From: Salinilacihabitans rarus
GTDB lineage: Archaea > Halobacteriota > Halobacteria > Halobacteriales > Natrialbaceae
Assembly: GCF_024296665.1 (NCBI RefSeq)
Contig: NZ_CP100762.1
Span: forward strand, 496,001-560,000
Direction: 5' to 3'
DNA: 64,000 nt
Below the pieces are notes generated by a model, which had not been told where the DNA came from, did not search any database, and was given only the letters and a program-made list of their open reading frames with translations. Made by a program: the position numbers and the translations under genes. Shown here one piece after another: positions 4,797 to 14,797 of the stretch; the first letter of the stretch is position 1; every line of letters starts with the position of its first letter.

Positions 4797-7700
4797 CTAC
4801 CGCCTCGCGACCGCGACCGAGAGCGCGAGCAACACCACGCCGAGCGCGAGGGCCGCGGGCCCCAGTCGGGCGTCGCCGGAGAGGGTCGTGACCGCGCCGG
4901 CGACGATGCCCGCGGCGCCCCCGCCGGCGAGCACCGGGGTCGCGACGGCCGCCTCGCCGCCGTCGCCGTCGGCTCCCGACTCTGCCGCTTCGAGGCGCTC
5001 CTCTATGGCCGTGACGCGCGCCGTAATCTCGTCCGCGTCGCGGGTCGCGCTCCCGTCGTCGGCCGGCGACTCGCGGTCTTCGAGGGCCGCGACCGCCCCC
5101 TCGAGGGCGTCGATGGCCGCCATCGCCTCGTCGAGGTCCGCCCGAACGGCGTCGAACTCCTCGGCCAGTCCGGCGTCGGGCACCTCCTCCTGCTCGATCA
5201 CCGCGTCGAACCGCTCCTCGAGGCGAGCGACGCTCCCTTCGAGCGCGGCGACGCGGTCGTCGGCGACGGCGTCGCACTCGAGGCCGTCGAGGCTCGCGTC
5301 CAGCGACTCGAGGCGGTCTTCGAGCGCCGACACGTCCGACTGGACGGTTTCGAGGGCGACCTCCTCGCCGGTCGCGCTCCCGTCGTCGGCCGGATCGAGC
5401 GCGTCGAGGTCGGCTTCGAGGGCCGCGACCGCCGCTTCGAGGTCGTCGACCGTCGCCGTCGCGGCCTCGAGGTCCGCCGTCCGCTCCTCGAGGGCCGCGA
5501 CGTTCGATTCGAGCGACGCGACGGCGTCGACGTCGCTCTCGACGGCGTCGATCCGGTCGAGGGCCGACTCGACGTCCGTCGCCAGCGCGTCGAGGCGGTC
5601 GGAGACGTCGCCGACGCGTTCGAGGAGCGGGCCGACTCGCTGCGGGCGGCCCTCGACGAACGCGTCGGCGCGGTCGGCGGCGGCACACTCGAGGCCGACG
5701 ACCCGGTCTTCGAGGGCGTCCGCGTCGTCGGTCAGCGCGTCGAGGTCCTCGTCGAGCGCCCCGACGCGCTCGCGGGTCGCCGCGAGCGTCTCGCGGACCT
5801 CGATCAGGTCCGCCTCGGCGGCCGCGTCGGCTTCGAGGTCGGCGACCGCCTCGTCGAGGTCGTCGAGGTTCGATTCGAGCGACGCGACGGCGTCGCGGGA
5901 GGCCGCCCGGCCGTCGAGCCCCTCGACGGTGGCGGAGACGGCGGCGACCGACTCTTCGAGGTCGGAGACGTCGTCGTCGAGCGCGTCGAGGTCCGCGTCG
6001 AGGTCGGCGACGTCCTCGCGGACGCCCTCGACGGCGGCCTCGCTCGCGGCCGCCCCTTCGAGGTCGGTCACGTCGGCCCGCAGGTCCGCGAGGTCGTCCG
6101 CGGTCGACTCGACCCCGTCCTCGAGGTCGGCCAGTCCGTCCTCGACGGTCGCTTCGAGGTCGTCGAACCGGGCGTCGGTGCGCTCCGACAGCTCTTCGAG
6201 CCGGCCGGAGAGTCCCCCGAGCCGCGTCGACTGCTCCTCGACCCGCCCGGAGACGTCCTCGACGCGGGTGCACGCCTCCTCGAACCGGTCGTCGAGCGAG
6301 TCGGCCCGTTCCTCGACGGTCGCGGTTCGCTCGTCGAGATCGCTGGTCCGCTCGTCGAGCGACGCCACGTCCGCGGTGACCGCCGAGAGCGCGTCGTCGG
6401 TCTCGTCGAGGCTCGCCTCGACGTCCGCGAGGTCCCCTTCGAGCGACTCCAGATCCCCCCGCAGTTCCGAGCGGTCGGACGCGGCTTCGTCCTCGAGGTC
6501 CGAAACCTCGTCGTCGAGCGCGTCGAGGGCGGCATCGAGGTCGTCGAGGGCCCCGGACAGGTCGTCGAGGTCGGCTTCGAGGGCCTCGACGTCGTCGGCC
6601 GGCGCGCGGTCGTCGACGTCGTCCGCGACGGTCGAGAGGTCCGCGGCGACCTCGTCGAGGCGCTCGTCGAGGGCCGCGACCTCGTCGACGGTGGCGCTTC
6701 GCTCCTCGACGTACTCGAGGTCCTCGCCGAGGGTTTCGACCTCCTCGGCGACGTTCTCGATCTCCTCGTCGCGGTTGGCGAGGCGGTCGAACAGCTGGTC
6801 GATCGCCTCGTCGGCGCGGCCGTCGACGTCGCCCGGTGCGTCGATCGTCTCGCCCTCGTCGAACGCGAGCGACGCGGCGGCCGCGTCGTCGTCCTCGGTC
6901 CCGTCGGCCGCACCCGCCGCCTCGGACCAGGTGACCGCCTCGTAGGCGTCGACGTCGTCGCGGGCGGCTTCGAGCGCGCCCCGGGCCGTGCTCTCCGCGG
7001 GGTCGTCGGCGAGTCTGACCCCGCGGACGGAGAAGGGGAGGTCGGCCGCGTCGAACCGGCCGCCGAGGAGGAACTCGACGCCCTCGACGGCGCGGTCGCC
7101 CGCGACGGCGACGGGGACGGCGATCCCCTGCTGGACGTCGCGCTCGGCGGCCTCGGCGGCGATGGCGTCGATCAACTCCGCGGCGAGGTCGTCGAGCGCC
7201 CGCGCCAGCGCGCTCTCGATATCGTCGGTCGCCGCGTTCGGGTCGAGCGCGAACTCCTCGAGGACGGACCTGACCTGTTCGCGGGCGTGGCCGGTCTCGG
7301 CGGCCGCCCGCTCGACGACCCACTCGCTGCCCTTCGCGAGCGCGAACGCCAGCGCCGGGACGCCGTAGTACGACAGCGCGACGCTCGTCGTCTCGTCCTC
7401 GATGCAGACGCCGAGGCCGGTGTAGTTGTCCGTCTCTAGCTGGTCGTAGACGACGGCGAACCCCTTCGTGATCGGCGTCGGGTCGAACTCGCGGTCGCCG
7501 AGGACCGACTCGACGGCCCTGCGGTGGGCGTCGGTCGCCTCCGCCTCGTCGACCAGCGGGCCGGGCGTCGTGTAACAGATGCGTTCGTCTCCGCCGTCGG
7601 GGAGGAGGTCGGCGACGAGCGCGTCGAACGCCGTCTCCGCGCCGTCGTCGACCGACAGGTAGCCGTGCGAGAGCAGCGACGTCGCCTCCGCGTCGAGGGC

Positions 7701-7910
7701 GTCGGCGGCCGCGAGCGCGTCGTCGCCGAGGACGTACGTCGTCCCCTCGCGCTCGACCGTCAGCAGGTCGGCCGGGTCGAGTCCCGCCGCGTCGAGGGCG
7801 TCCGCGTCGGCCGGGAGCGCGACCGGCGGCGCCGCGTCGACCGCGGGGCCGTCGGGGCCGTCCCGGACTGCACGGAGCGCCCCCGTTCCGATGTCGAGAC
7901 CGTGTACCAT
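4797..7910 (-). CDS. actin/Hsp70-like ATPase domain fused to long coiled coil and C-terminal membrane anchor
   Basis: The protein of 1037 residues has three parts. Residues 1-330 look like an actin/Hsp70-fold ATPase: phosphate-1 motif HGLDIGTGALRAV (3-15), a phosphate-2-like GLGVCIEDETTS (165-176), and an adenosine-type FLLGGRF near 280. An acidic linker follows. Residues about 366-985 are heptad-like repeats rich in LE, LD and VE with almost no proline, so a very long coiled coil of some 600 residues. The last 50 residues contain two hydrophobic segments, about 989-1010 and 1016-1035, that would anchor the protein. Haloarchaeal actin homologues with roles in cell shape and DNA segregation are known; whether this is one of them cannot be decided here. 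The ATG at 7910 gives an N-terminus right at the phosphate-1 strand. Confidence 0.75.
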   Translation of the reverse strand: MVHGLDIGTGALRAVRDGPDGPAVDAAPPVALPADADALDAAGLDPADLLTVEREGTTYVLGDDALAAADALDAEATSLLSHGYLSVDDGAETAFDALVADLLPDGGDERICYTTPGPLVDEAEATDAHRRAVESVLGDREFDPTPITKGFAVVYDQLETDNYTGLGVCIEDETTSVALSYYGVPALAFALAKGSEWVVERAAAETGHAREQVRSVLEEFALDPNAATDDIESALARALDDLAAELIDAIAAEAAERDVQQGIAVPVAVAGDRAVEGVEFLLGGRFDAADLPFSVRGVRLADDPAESTARGALEAARDDVDAYEAVTWSEAAGAADGTEDDDAAAASLAFDEGETIDAPGDVDGRADEAIDQLFDRLANRDEEIENVAEEVETLGEDLEYVEERSATVDEVAALDERLDEVAADLSTVADDVDDRAPADDVEALEADLDDLSGALDDLDAALDALDDEVSDLEDEAASDRSELRGDLESLEGDLADVEASLDETDDALSAVTADVASLDERTSDLDERTATVEERADSLDDRFEEACTRVEDVSGRVEEQSTRLGGLSGRLEELSERTDARFDDLEATVEDGLADLEDGVESTADDLADLRADVTDLEGAAASEAAVEGVREDVADLDADLDALDDDVSDLEESVAAVSATVEGLDGRAASRDAVASLESNLDDLDEAVADLEADAAAEADLIEVRETLAATRERVGALDEDLDALTDDADALEDRVVGLECAAADRADAFVEGRPQRVGPLLERVGDVSDRLDALATDVESALDRIDAVESDVDAVASLESNVAALEERTADLEAATATVDDLEAAVAALEADLDALDPADDGSATGEEVALETVQSDVSALEDRLESLDASLDGLECDAVADDRVAALEGSVARLEERFDAVIEQEEVPDAGLAEEFDAVRADLDEAMAAIDALEGAVAALEDRESPADDGSATRDADEITARVTAIEERLEAAESGADGDGGEAAVATPVLAGGGAAGIVAGAVTTLSGDARLGPAALALGVVLLALSVAVARR

Positions 7911-11774: not shown

Positions 11775-11948
11775 CACCCCACCGCGTCGAGTGTTCCGCG
11801 GCGAGCGGGCGTCGGGCGTCTCGGTCGCGACCCACCCACCCCACCGCGTCGAGTGTTTCGTCGAGGGCGGGTCGACCCCCCGTCTCCGACGCCGAATCGC
11901 AGGACGGAGCCGCCGGGACTCCCTCACCCCACCGCGTCGAGTGCTTCG
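11775..11948 (-). repeat. three origin-recognition-box-like repeats, minus orientation
   Basis: Three near-identical copies occur at 11775-11798, 11837-11860 and 11925-11948. Read on the minus strand each is CGAAACACTCGACGCGGTGG followed by GGTG (the first copy begins CGGAAC, the third CGAAGC). The G-string end and palindrome-like AACACTCGAC core resemble haloarchaeal origin recognition boxes bound by Orc1/Cdc6. They point in the opposite direction to the copies near the orc1/cdc6 gene. They fill most of the otherwise gene-free stretch 11640-11995. Confidence 0.8.
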
Positions 11949-11995
11949 GCGGGCGCGGGCCCGTGGCCGCCTGCTCCCTTCAGTGCCTGATCCCA

Positions 11996-13126
11996 TCACC
12001 GCCCGATCCACCGGAGCCACTCCCCGTAGGACTCGAACCGCGCGAGGTGGGACTCCTCGGCGGCGCCGTCGACGAACCGGACGTGACGGTAGACGGGTTT
12101 CCCGAGGTCCTCGTCGGGGTCGATCGAGAGCCAGTGGACCGGCCGCTCGAAACCGTGCTCGCGCAGGGTCGCCCGCAGGTCGGCCACCGTCTCGTCGTCT
12201 AGCTGGTAGAGGACGTGCGTGCTGAAGACGACGAGCGCGGCGTCGTCCGGGGCCTCCGCGAGCAGCCGCGGGAGCGTTTCGACGGCGTCCCCCTCGACGA
12301 GGTCGGGCCGGGCAGTCCTCGCCGCGTCGATCGCGGCGTCGAGCCGTTCGCGCCGGTCGGGCTGATCGGGGTGGACGAGCGCGCGGAGCCAGCGAGCGTC
12401 CGCGGGATCGGTCGGATCGAGCGGGTTCAGGTCGACGCCGGTCCTGTGGACGACCCGCGGGAACCGCCGCGGAATCGGCGGCCGTCGATCGCCCCGGACG
12501 GCGGCCCCGACCTCGACGGGCGAGTCCGGGTCGCCTGCGGTCCGAACCGCCGAGTCCGTGCGGTCGAGACGGTCGGACGGCCCCGCGTCGTCGGTTTCGC
12601 CCGACCGGTACCGATACCGGTACCGGTCCCAGTTGAGATTTAGCCCCGCGCTCGTCCCGATCTCGATCTGTGCGAGGGTCCGCGTCTCGGCCGTTCGGGC
12701 CACGCGCTCGAACGCGGGCAGGAGCACCGCGGTCCTCCCGACGTCGTTCGTCTGGACGCGGCGCGTCGCGAGCAGGTCCCGCAAGCGCTCCTCGTTCGCC
12801 AGACAGAACTCCCGAAAACGAGCGACGACGCCCCCGTCGTCCCCTTCGTTCGCTCCCGTTCGTCGGTCGGTCGTCTCGCCCCCACACGACGGGTAGTAAT
12901 CGGCGAGCGGGTGGTCGACGCCGTCCAGGAGCAGCGAGTGAACCGCGGCGAGGAGCAACTGCGGCGCTGGCTGGCCGGGACGGGCGTCCGCGGCGATCCC
13001 CAGGAGCCGTTCGTCCTCGGCCGCGGCCGCCGCCAGCGTCCCGTACAGGGGCGTCACGTCGGCGGCCCAGCCGGCGTACCGTTCGAACTCCGCCGCGAGG
13101 TCGCCCCGCGTCGTGCGGTCGTCCAT
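11996..13126 (-). CDS. DUF2332 family protein
   Basis: The 376-residue protein matches the layout of the DUF2332 family: an N-terminal region ending in [13 protein letters not shown] (about residue 70), the [16 protein letters not shown] segment (about 120), the diagnostic [18 protein letters not shown] near residue 150, then [18 protein letters not shown] and a C-terminal [21 protein letters not shown] resembles a SAM-binding loop, so a methyltransferase-like fold has been suspected for such proteins, but no reaction is known to me. The ATG at 13126 (MDDRTTRG) is preferred over the upstream one at 13177. The gene lies inside the array of origin-box-like repeats. Confidence 0.85.
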
Positions 13127-13275
13127 GTGACGTCCGCGGACCCCAACGTGAAAAGTGTCGGGAACGGGGACGGTCACCCGATCCAGACCGAAAGGTCATT
13201 GTCGGTCCGGCGGCGACGGACGAGTCACGCGCTCGGCCCGGCGTCGGCGAAGCGTCGACGAACCAGTTACCGAGC

Positions 13276-13346
13276 CGAAACACTCGACGTAGTGGGGTGG
13301 CGATCCACCGGCATATCGGGAACACTCGACGCACTCGACACGGTGG
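13276..13346 (+). repeat. two origin-recognition-box-like repeats just upstream of orc1/cdc6
   Basis: One copy at 13276-13300 reads CGAAACACTCGACGTAGTGG then GGTGG. A second at 13321-13346 is rearranged: AACACTCGAC is followed after one base by a second CACTCGACACGGTGG that lacks the long G-string. The second copy touches the TATA region of orc1/cdc6, so binding of the initiator there could repress its own gene. Confidence 0.8.
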
Positions 13347-13355
13347 TTTTATGTG
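13345..13355 (+). promoter_or_regulatory. TATA box of orc1/cdc6, overlapping an origin-box-like repeat
   Basis: GGTTTTATGTG at 13345-13355 lies about 28 bp upstream of the ATG at 13379, the usual distance for a leaderless haloarchaeal transcript. It abuts the degenerate repeat at 13321-13346. Confidence 0.5.
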
Positions 13356-13378
13356 TTTGCCGTCCCCCGGATCGAACG

Positions 13379-14605
13379 ATGCCGCTGTTCGACCGGGACA
13401 CGTCGATCTTCTCGGACGAGGACGTGCTACGCGAGGACTACCAGCCGGAGTCGATCCAGGAGCGCGACGAGGAGATCGACGCCTACATGGCCGCCCTCCA
13501 GCCCGTGATCAACGGCGCCCAGCCGCGGAACCTCTTCCTCTACGGGAAAGCCGGCGTGGGGAAGACGGCCGTCACCCGCTATCTCCTCTCGCATCTCGAA
13601 CGCGACGTCGAGGCCTACGACGACGTCACGCTGACGGTCGTCTGGCTCAACTGCAACAACCTCTCGTCGTCCTATCAGGTCGCGGCGAACCTCGTCAACG
13701 AACTCCGGCCCCCGTCCCGACAGATCAGCACGACGGGCTACCCCCGCCAGACGATCTTCGACATGCTCTACGACGAACTCGAGTCGGTCGGCGGCACGGT
13801 CCTGATCGTCCTCGACGAGATCGACCACATCGGCGACGACGACGGCATCCTCTACGAACTCCCGCGGGCGCGGGCCAACGGCTACCTCTCGGCGGTCAAA
13901 CCCGGCATCATCGGGATCAGCAACGACCTCAGCTTCCACGACAGCCTCTCGCCGAAGGTCAAGGACACCCTCTGTGAGGAGGAGGTCCACTTCCCGCCGT
14001 ACACGGCCGACGAACTCCGGGCGATCCTCGAACAGCGCGCCGAAAACGCCCTCTACGACGGCGCCTACGGCTCGAACGTGCTCTCGCTGTGTGCGGCGCT
14101 GGCCGCCCAGGACACCGGCAGCGCCCGGCAGGCGCTCGACCTCCTCTACAAGGCCGGCGACATCACCCGGTCGAACGACGAGACGACGATCACCGAACCC
14201 CACGTCAGGGAGGCCCAGCGCGCCCTCGAACGCGGTCAGATCCGACAGGGAATGATGGAACTGACCCGCCACGGCCACCTCTCGCTGGCGGCGGTCCTCT
14301 CGATCGCCATCGAGGACGACACGCCGGCCCGGGTCCGCGAGATCTACCCGAAGTACGCCGAGATCGCCGAACGCTTCGGCACCAAGCCGCTCGTGCGCCG
14401 GCGGATGCACGACCACCTCTCGGATCTGGCGATGCAGGGGATCCTCAAGCGGTACACCCGCAACCACGGCCGCTCGGGCGGCCAGTACTACGAGTACGAC
14501 CTCGACGTCACCCTCGAACTGGCGATCGACGTCGTCGAGGAACTGGACGACGTCGACCTCTCGCCGCACGCCTCGCGGACGGCCGCCAGACTGGGCCTGC
14601 GGTAA
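13379..14605 (+). CDS. Orc1/Cdc6 family replication initiator
   Basis: The 408-residue AAA+ protein has Walker A GKAGVGKT at residues 56-63, Walker [10 protein letters not shown] at about 141-149, and a C-terminal winged-helix domain (about 300-400) of the kind that binds origin boxes. By family knowledge it recognises the origin and loads the MCM helicase. The start at 13379 ([11 protein letters not shown]) fits the TATA spacing and the conserved N-terminus. Haloarchaeal genomes encode many paralogues, each usually reading its own box variant, and the repeats on both sides of this gene share one distinct core. This points to an origin dedicated to this initiator. Confidence 0.93.
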
Positions 14606-14682
14606 CCCCGCTTCCGTCCGCTCTCGTTTCCGACTCGCGCCCCGCTTCGTCGCCTTCTCGCCCACCCCCACCCGCTTCCCCC

Positions 14683-14797
14683 CGAAACACTCGACGCGGT
14701 GGGGTGGGGGTGTGTCCGGTCGCCCGGACCGTCGGTCCGTCCCGTCGCCCCCGCGAACCGGCCCCCGCCACGGGAACACTCGACACGGTGGGGTGGG
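14683..14797 (+). repeat. two origin-recognition-box-like repeats downstream of orc1/cdc6
   Basis: Copies at 14683-14706 (CGAAACACTCGACGCGGTGG then GGTG) and 14771-14797 (GGGAACACTCGACACGGTGG then GGTGGG) lie between orc1/cdc6 and the CutA gene. Both have the same orientation as the upstream pair. The rest of this 263-bp gap is GC-rich and shows no gene. Confidence 0.8.

Follow-up and report, generated by a model that had tools for sequence, protein, structure and literature searches.

What role could be served by a haloarchaeal gene that joins an actin-like head to a very long coiled coil and a membrane anchor? The gene in question lies on the minus strand of the window (the whole 64,000-nucleotide stretch of Salinilacihabitans rarus that was analyzed, positions 496,001 to 560,000 of contig NZ_CP100762.1), with its start codon at 7910, its stop at 4797 and a length of 1037 codons; the coordinates given by an initial annotation were right. 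Its parts are:

4797..7910, minus strand: CDS of 1037 aa, consisting of a volactin-family actin domain, linker, coiled coil and C-terminal membrane hairpin
6939..7910, minus strand: predicted actin-fold domain, residues 1-324 (PF25216 Volactin, residues 1-316), from Pfam, AlphaFold2 and the MamK Z score
7881..7901, minus strand: phosphate-1 loop GLDIGTG, residues 4-10, whose Asp6 is retained by 68 of the 73 fused homologues examined
7458..7478, minus strand: connect-1 TPITKGF, residues 145-151, with Lys149 at the position of the invariant Glu152 of volactin
7383..7409, minus strand: phosphate-2 loop VCIEDETTS, residues 168-176, which is ISFGAGMTN in volactin (Gly-Ala-Gly replaced by Glu-Asp-Glu)
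7080..7115, minus strand: adenosine-motif region PVAVAGDRAVEG, residues 266-277, which is PVVVTGGTSSPSG in volactin (shorter by one residue, with Ala for the first Gly)
4971..6878, minus strand: coiled coil, residues ~345-980 (~635 residues), from heptad periodicity and coiled-coil family matches
4803..4952, minus strand: C-terminal Gly-rich, two-segment membrane hairpin, residues ~987-1036, consensus AGGGGAGxVAGG...G...LG...LL..A...R

The frame appears to be coding over its whole length because GC3 was 0.94-0.98 in all three parts of the gene and GC2 was the lowest of the codon positions, and the start codon is judged correct because the Volactin model was matched from end to end. The layout described in the initial annotation held up in each of its parts. 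The phosphate-1 motif is present near the N terminus as G4-L-D-I-G-T-G10. Hydrophobic residues of the rod recur with a period of ~3.5 residues (signal 3.09; none of 500 shuffles exceeded 2.02), and the coiled-coil span opens with an acidic/Ala linker of ~20 residues. Two hydrophobic peaks follow at residues 989-1007 (KD 1.66, Gly-rich and the weaker of the two) and 1016-1034 (KD 2.39), and this hairpin is conserved in the family. AlphaFold2 modeling of the C-terminal 130 residues gave two long helices, then a short helix at ~999-1011 and a long one at 1014-1036 in the hairpin, with low confidence in the first half of the hairpin. The heptad signal exceeded that of the shuffles in all 75 complete fused proteins (median coil 633 residues), and every fused gene that could be read to its end encodes the actin domain, coiled coil and C-terminal hydrophobic hairpin. 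Total length among the Natrialbaceae fused genes ranged from 575 to 1313 residues (median ~1044; 70 measurable). A profile of the hairpin found mostly one site per Natrialbaceae genome, the fused gene itself, with a few weak second matches; the hairpin is therefore not a widespread module.

The head was assigned to a family by Pfam and to a fold by modeling. Residues 1-316 matched PF25216 (Volactin) at 394 bits (E value 8e-118, cut-off 35) over positions 1-321 of the 321 in the model, and salactin (PF25229) was absent from the 25 best Pfam matches listed for the fused protein. The AlphaFold2 model of residues 1-324, built from an alignment of 28 fused heads, had a mean pLDDT of 90.2 and a pTM of 0.89, and its Foldseek matches were MreB, MamK, actin and FtsA. 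Structural comparison by VIA-align gave Z 27.2 with the MamK filament (rmsd 2.9 over 288 residues), followed by BeeR (25.2), MreB (24.7) and crenactin (23.8). As modeled, the head thus has the two-domain actin/RNase-H-like fold of the actin superfamily, closest to MamK and MreB, and the actin/Hsp70-like fold proposed earlier for residues 1-330 is what the prediction returned, not some other fold. A search of PDB sequences with a profile of the fused heads yielded chance-level matches only; with a profile of stand-alone volactins, MamK was found at an E value of 6e-4.

The 3.62-Mb S. rarus genome also carries a separate, stand-alone volactin gene (C1:302588-303571), which is ~35% identical to the fused head and sits apart from the fused gene. 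The comparison with known haloarchaeal actins suggested in the initial annotation therefore placed the head in the volactin family but did not leave it as the lone haloarchaeal actin of this genome. Nor does the fused protein have the features of a stand-alone volactin (~340 aa with invariant INEGMxV, SFGAGMTN and VTGGT motifs), since its motifs are altered and a rod and hairpin are added. An MreB_Mbl (PF06723) match elsewhere in the S. rarus genome was rejected as an artifact; the matched sequence is scored as NAD-GH and probably belongs to the dnaK region.

The head differs from its parent family in the active site. Among 46 stand-alone volactin sequences, taken from Natrialbaceae and other families, the connect-1 (EPINEGMAV), phosphate-2 (SFGAGMTN) and adenosine (VVVTGGT) motifs were invariant or nearly so. 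In an alignment of the stand-alone profile, Glu152 fell on the connect-1 Glu of MamK (VVSEPFMV) and of Caulobacter crescentus MreB (LIDEPMAA), which is the catalytic Glu. This residue was present in all 46 stand-alone volactins and in none of 78 fused copies (73 from Natrialbaceae and five from two other families). The 73 Natrialbaceae copies have Lys (26), Arg (19), Thr (19), Ser (4), Gln (4) or Ala (1) in its place, and the five others have Pro or Arg. Most Natrialbaceae copies have also lost the GAG of phosphate-2, the last Gly of which survives in 4 of 73, and in all 73 the adenosine motif is one residue short. The protein in the window has all three changes: Lys149 in connect-1, E171-D172-E173 in phosphate-2 and PVAVAG-DRA in the adenosine motif. 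The copies outside Natrialbaceae differ in the motifs they have lost: the phosphate-2 loop is still canonical in L232 (GAGTTD) but gone from L230 and L231, and only the catalytic Glu is missing from all.

Judged by its sequence, the fused protein thus appears to lack the catalytic Glu/Gln, the Gly-rich phosphate-2 loop and the GG adenosine motif of an actin-type ATPase. Because the Glu, phosphate-2 and adenosine motif are altered in the fused copies, loss of ATP hydrolysis is likely, and the term ATPase in the initial annotation is not supported, given a Lys at the Glu position. Nucleotide binding may survive, since 68 of 73 copies retain Asp6 of phosphate-1. Positions common to the fused heads and volactin include GLDxG, TGxG, YYxVP and G.W, the last three of which lie after phosphate-2. 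Heads of the Natrialbaceae fused clade also have a new conserved motif of their own, E-x-L-x-G-G-R-F-D, which is missing from stand-alone volactin.

These changes are not those of a decaying gene. Over 10 close pairs, dN/dS was 0.14-0.50 for the fused head and 0.26-0.53 for the coil, compared with 0-0.03 for stand-alone volactin. The fused head is under purifying selection, but its evolution is about tenfold looser than that of the stand-alone protein.

One might suppose from the full actin fold, with filament-forming MamK, BeeR and MreB as nearest structures, that the fused protein is a membrane-bound polymer in its own right, its head forming filaments or a lattice as MreB does, its coils bundling, and volactin not being needed. 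Self-assembly is common among coiled coils, and the retained phosphate-1 Asp would suit such a polymer. However, volactin, a dynamic polymer, is almost invariant at just those positions where the fused copies have lost the catalytic Glu without exception and have a mostly degenerate phosphate-2 loop; the tenfold looser evolution of the head is unlike that of a head constrained by filament contacts, and a rod of ~600 residues would be unusual in a polymer that hugs the membrane. We consider an independent polymer unlikely.

Of 125 genomes in the GTDB family of S. rarus, 124 have volactin; the exception, a near-complete Natrialbaceae genome (G120), had no volactin match at all. In a further Natrialbaceae genome (G092) the sole volactin frame is split into residues 1-102 and 96-321 (C54:57721-58026 and 66867-67544), ~8.8 kb apart; this looks like the insertion of an element, and the Haloferax volactin has been described as a probably essential gene. 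Fused genes were recovered from 73 of the 125 genomes, and the hairpin profile matched 86 of the 125, by which measure ~30% of Natrialbaceae genomes are without the fused form. Named relatives in the family include Natribaculum, Halovivax, Natronorubrum, Natrinema, Natrialba, Haloterrigena and Halobiforma, among others. Salactin (PF25229) was found in one of the 125 genomes and not in that of S. rarus, and this near-absence leaves volactin as the only partner from the same superfamily found in Natrialbaceae.

A restriction of the fused form to Natrialbaceae was considered and dropped when five more fused genes (L230, L231, L232, L233 and L234), with the same head, linker, coil and hairpin layout, were found in two other families. 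In a tree of 72 fused and 46 stand-alone sequences, the Natrialbaceae fused copies all fell on one side of a single branch with support of 100, and hence form one clade. When the five outside copies were included they lay nearer to stand-alone volactin than to the Natrialbaceae fused clade (support 99), in a tree with long branches and no outgroup; both trees came from quick tree searches. These sequences are compatible with a single ancient fusion as well as with several independent ones. A search of plasmids gave, on Haloarcula and Natrinema replicons, only copies that are ~35% identical and annotated as 'hypothetical protein'.

An intact stand-alone volactin accompanies the fused gene in all 78 genomes from which the latter was retrieved (73 and 5), whereas many genomes have volactin without the fused form. 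Such a distribution is consistent with a dependence on volactin, although the co-occurrence is weaker than the raw counts suggest because it is phylogenetically clustered. In one further genome (G073) the fused gene and the stand-alone volactin are both broken, possibly through assembly errors.

Taken together with the volactin ancestry of the head, this leads us to propose that the fused protein is a docking partner of stand-alone volactin that links its filaments to the membrane, a reading that we regard as evenly poised. A competing explanation would make the head a non-cytoskeletal module for binding proteins or peptides, similar to PilM or FtsA, and the whole protein a membrane scaffold or receptor for division, the archaellum or secretion. 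Actin-fold proteins of the PilM/FtsA type do serve as adaptors, and the E-x-L-x-G-G-R-F-D motif, private to the Natrialbaceae fused clade, also speaks for this explanation. Such a machine is, however, suggested by none of the conserved neighbors, the residues shared with volactin cluster after phosphate-2 (TGxG...YYxVP...G.W), and strict co-occurrence with volactin would have to be a coincidence. This explanation therefore seems improbable to us.

Housekeeping genes recur beside the fused gene (pckA, ribosomal L11/L1 and an MFS transporter, all named from sequence), and no conserved operon partner was seen among its neighbors across genomes. In the window itself, an orc1/cdc6 gene (~13265-14602, plus strand; TIGR02928, 430 bits) lies within a region, 11777-14793, in which it is flanked by inverted copies of CACTCGACGCGGTGGGG. 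This repeat had 13 matches in the window with up to 3 mismatches, where 1.0 was expected, the best of them clustered at 11777-14793, which we regard as an origin-like region with ORB-like repeats ~4 kb from the fused volactin gene. A tether between chromosome and membrane, with an SMC/MukB-like rod and an actin-like head, could draw on that proximity, on superficial SMC matches of the long coiled coil and on the influence of salactin, a related haloarchaeal actin, on DNA partitioning (PMC10746226), but is very improbable, since the best SMC model scored 103 bits against a family cut-off of 567 and matched the coiled coil only, no DNA-binding domain is present, and elsewhere the gene adjoins pckA or ribosomal genes, with orc1/cdc6 not among its recurrent neighbors. 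For the same reasons, a match in the coiled coil only and far under the cut-off, and a head with an actin fold, an SMC/MukB-like rod ATPase, a class defined by P-loop ABC head domains, was rejected. The earlier suggestion of a tether for a filament or a chromosome, acting perhaps in segregation, thus survives in its first half, filament to membrane being the best reading; a role in chromosome segregation is not supported, as the gene has no conserved DNA-binding or Par-like neighbor.

How might a linker between volactin filaments and the membrane work? The C-terminal hairpin would sit in the membrane with both of its ends in the cytoplasm, and the coiled coil would reach into the cytoplasm, possibly as a parallel dimer, for up to ~90 nm at full extension; membrane insertion, this topology and dimerization of the rod are what we infer from the layout. 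The actin-fold head would bind stand-alone volactin, probably at the filament end or as a cap or nucleation seed, its affinity for volactin and preference for the end being likewise presumed. Predicted to be without normal ATP hydrolysis, it would hold or seed filaments outside their ATP-driven turnover. A volactin-derived head on a long, membrane-rooted rod, without normal ATP turnover, resembles an end anchor, a cap or a seed. More tentatively, then, the fused protein may be devoted to anchoring filaments of its parent volactin end-on or to seeding their nucleation, without hydrolysis, and the same joint reading, held no more firmly in this part, has the pseudo-actin arising from volactin in haloarchaea one or more times.

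In Haloferax volcanii, the tips of volactin-GFP filaments touch the membrane and the filaments are never aligned along it, and binding factors whose identity is unknown have been proposed for these tips (PMC10869688). Volactin is described in a 2025 paper as the only identified actin homologue of that species (PMC7617734), though its genome, included as a control, gave a Salactin Pfam match above the cut-off. Since the tips in Haloferax are apparently anchored without a fused protein, the latter cannot be a general anchor. For the attachment of haloarchaeal actin filaments to the membrane, the fused gene provides a concrete candidate factor in Natrialbaceae.

The volactin domain family is already known. 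The open-access papers searched (main text, for the volactin and salactin papers) yielded no account of a volactin that is fused or membrane-anchored, and as far as we found the fused, catalytically altered paralogue is undescribed. With volactin itself (VolA, HVO_2015; PF25216) it shares the full length of the family domain and GLDxG, TGxG, YYxVP and G.W; it differs in its ~35% identity, in the altered Glu position, phosphate-2 and adenosine motifs and in the added coil of ~635 residues and hairpin. Salactin of Halobacterium salinarum is likewise a haloarchaeal member of the actin superfamily, but belongs to a separate Pfam family (PF25229) and has no coiled coil or anchor. MamK and MreB have the fold predicted for the fused head, but are only 16-19% identical to it, keep the catalytic Glu, polymerize with ATP and have no rod or hairpin of this kind; the membrane contact of MreB is made by a short amphipathic helix or a hydrophobic loop.

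In the proposed model the nearest functional parallel would be FtsA, although an FtsA model was absent among the best NCBIfam matches listed for the whole fused protein. In both, an actin fold would couple a cytoskeletal polymer to the membrane through the C terminus. The client of FtsA is a tubulin homologue, held by way of a short amphipathic helix, whereas that proposed for the fused protein is its own actin paralogue, held by way of a ~600-residue coiled coil and a membrane hairpin. If this is true, the fused copies, which occur in three families and lack the catalytic Glu throughout, may have been invented independently or may be one ancient paralogue. They would then give a clear example, in prokaryotes, of an actin paralogue exchanging ATP turnover for anchoring, comparable to the Arp-type or FtsA-type specialization seen elsewhere.
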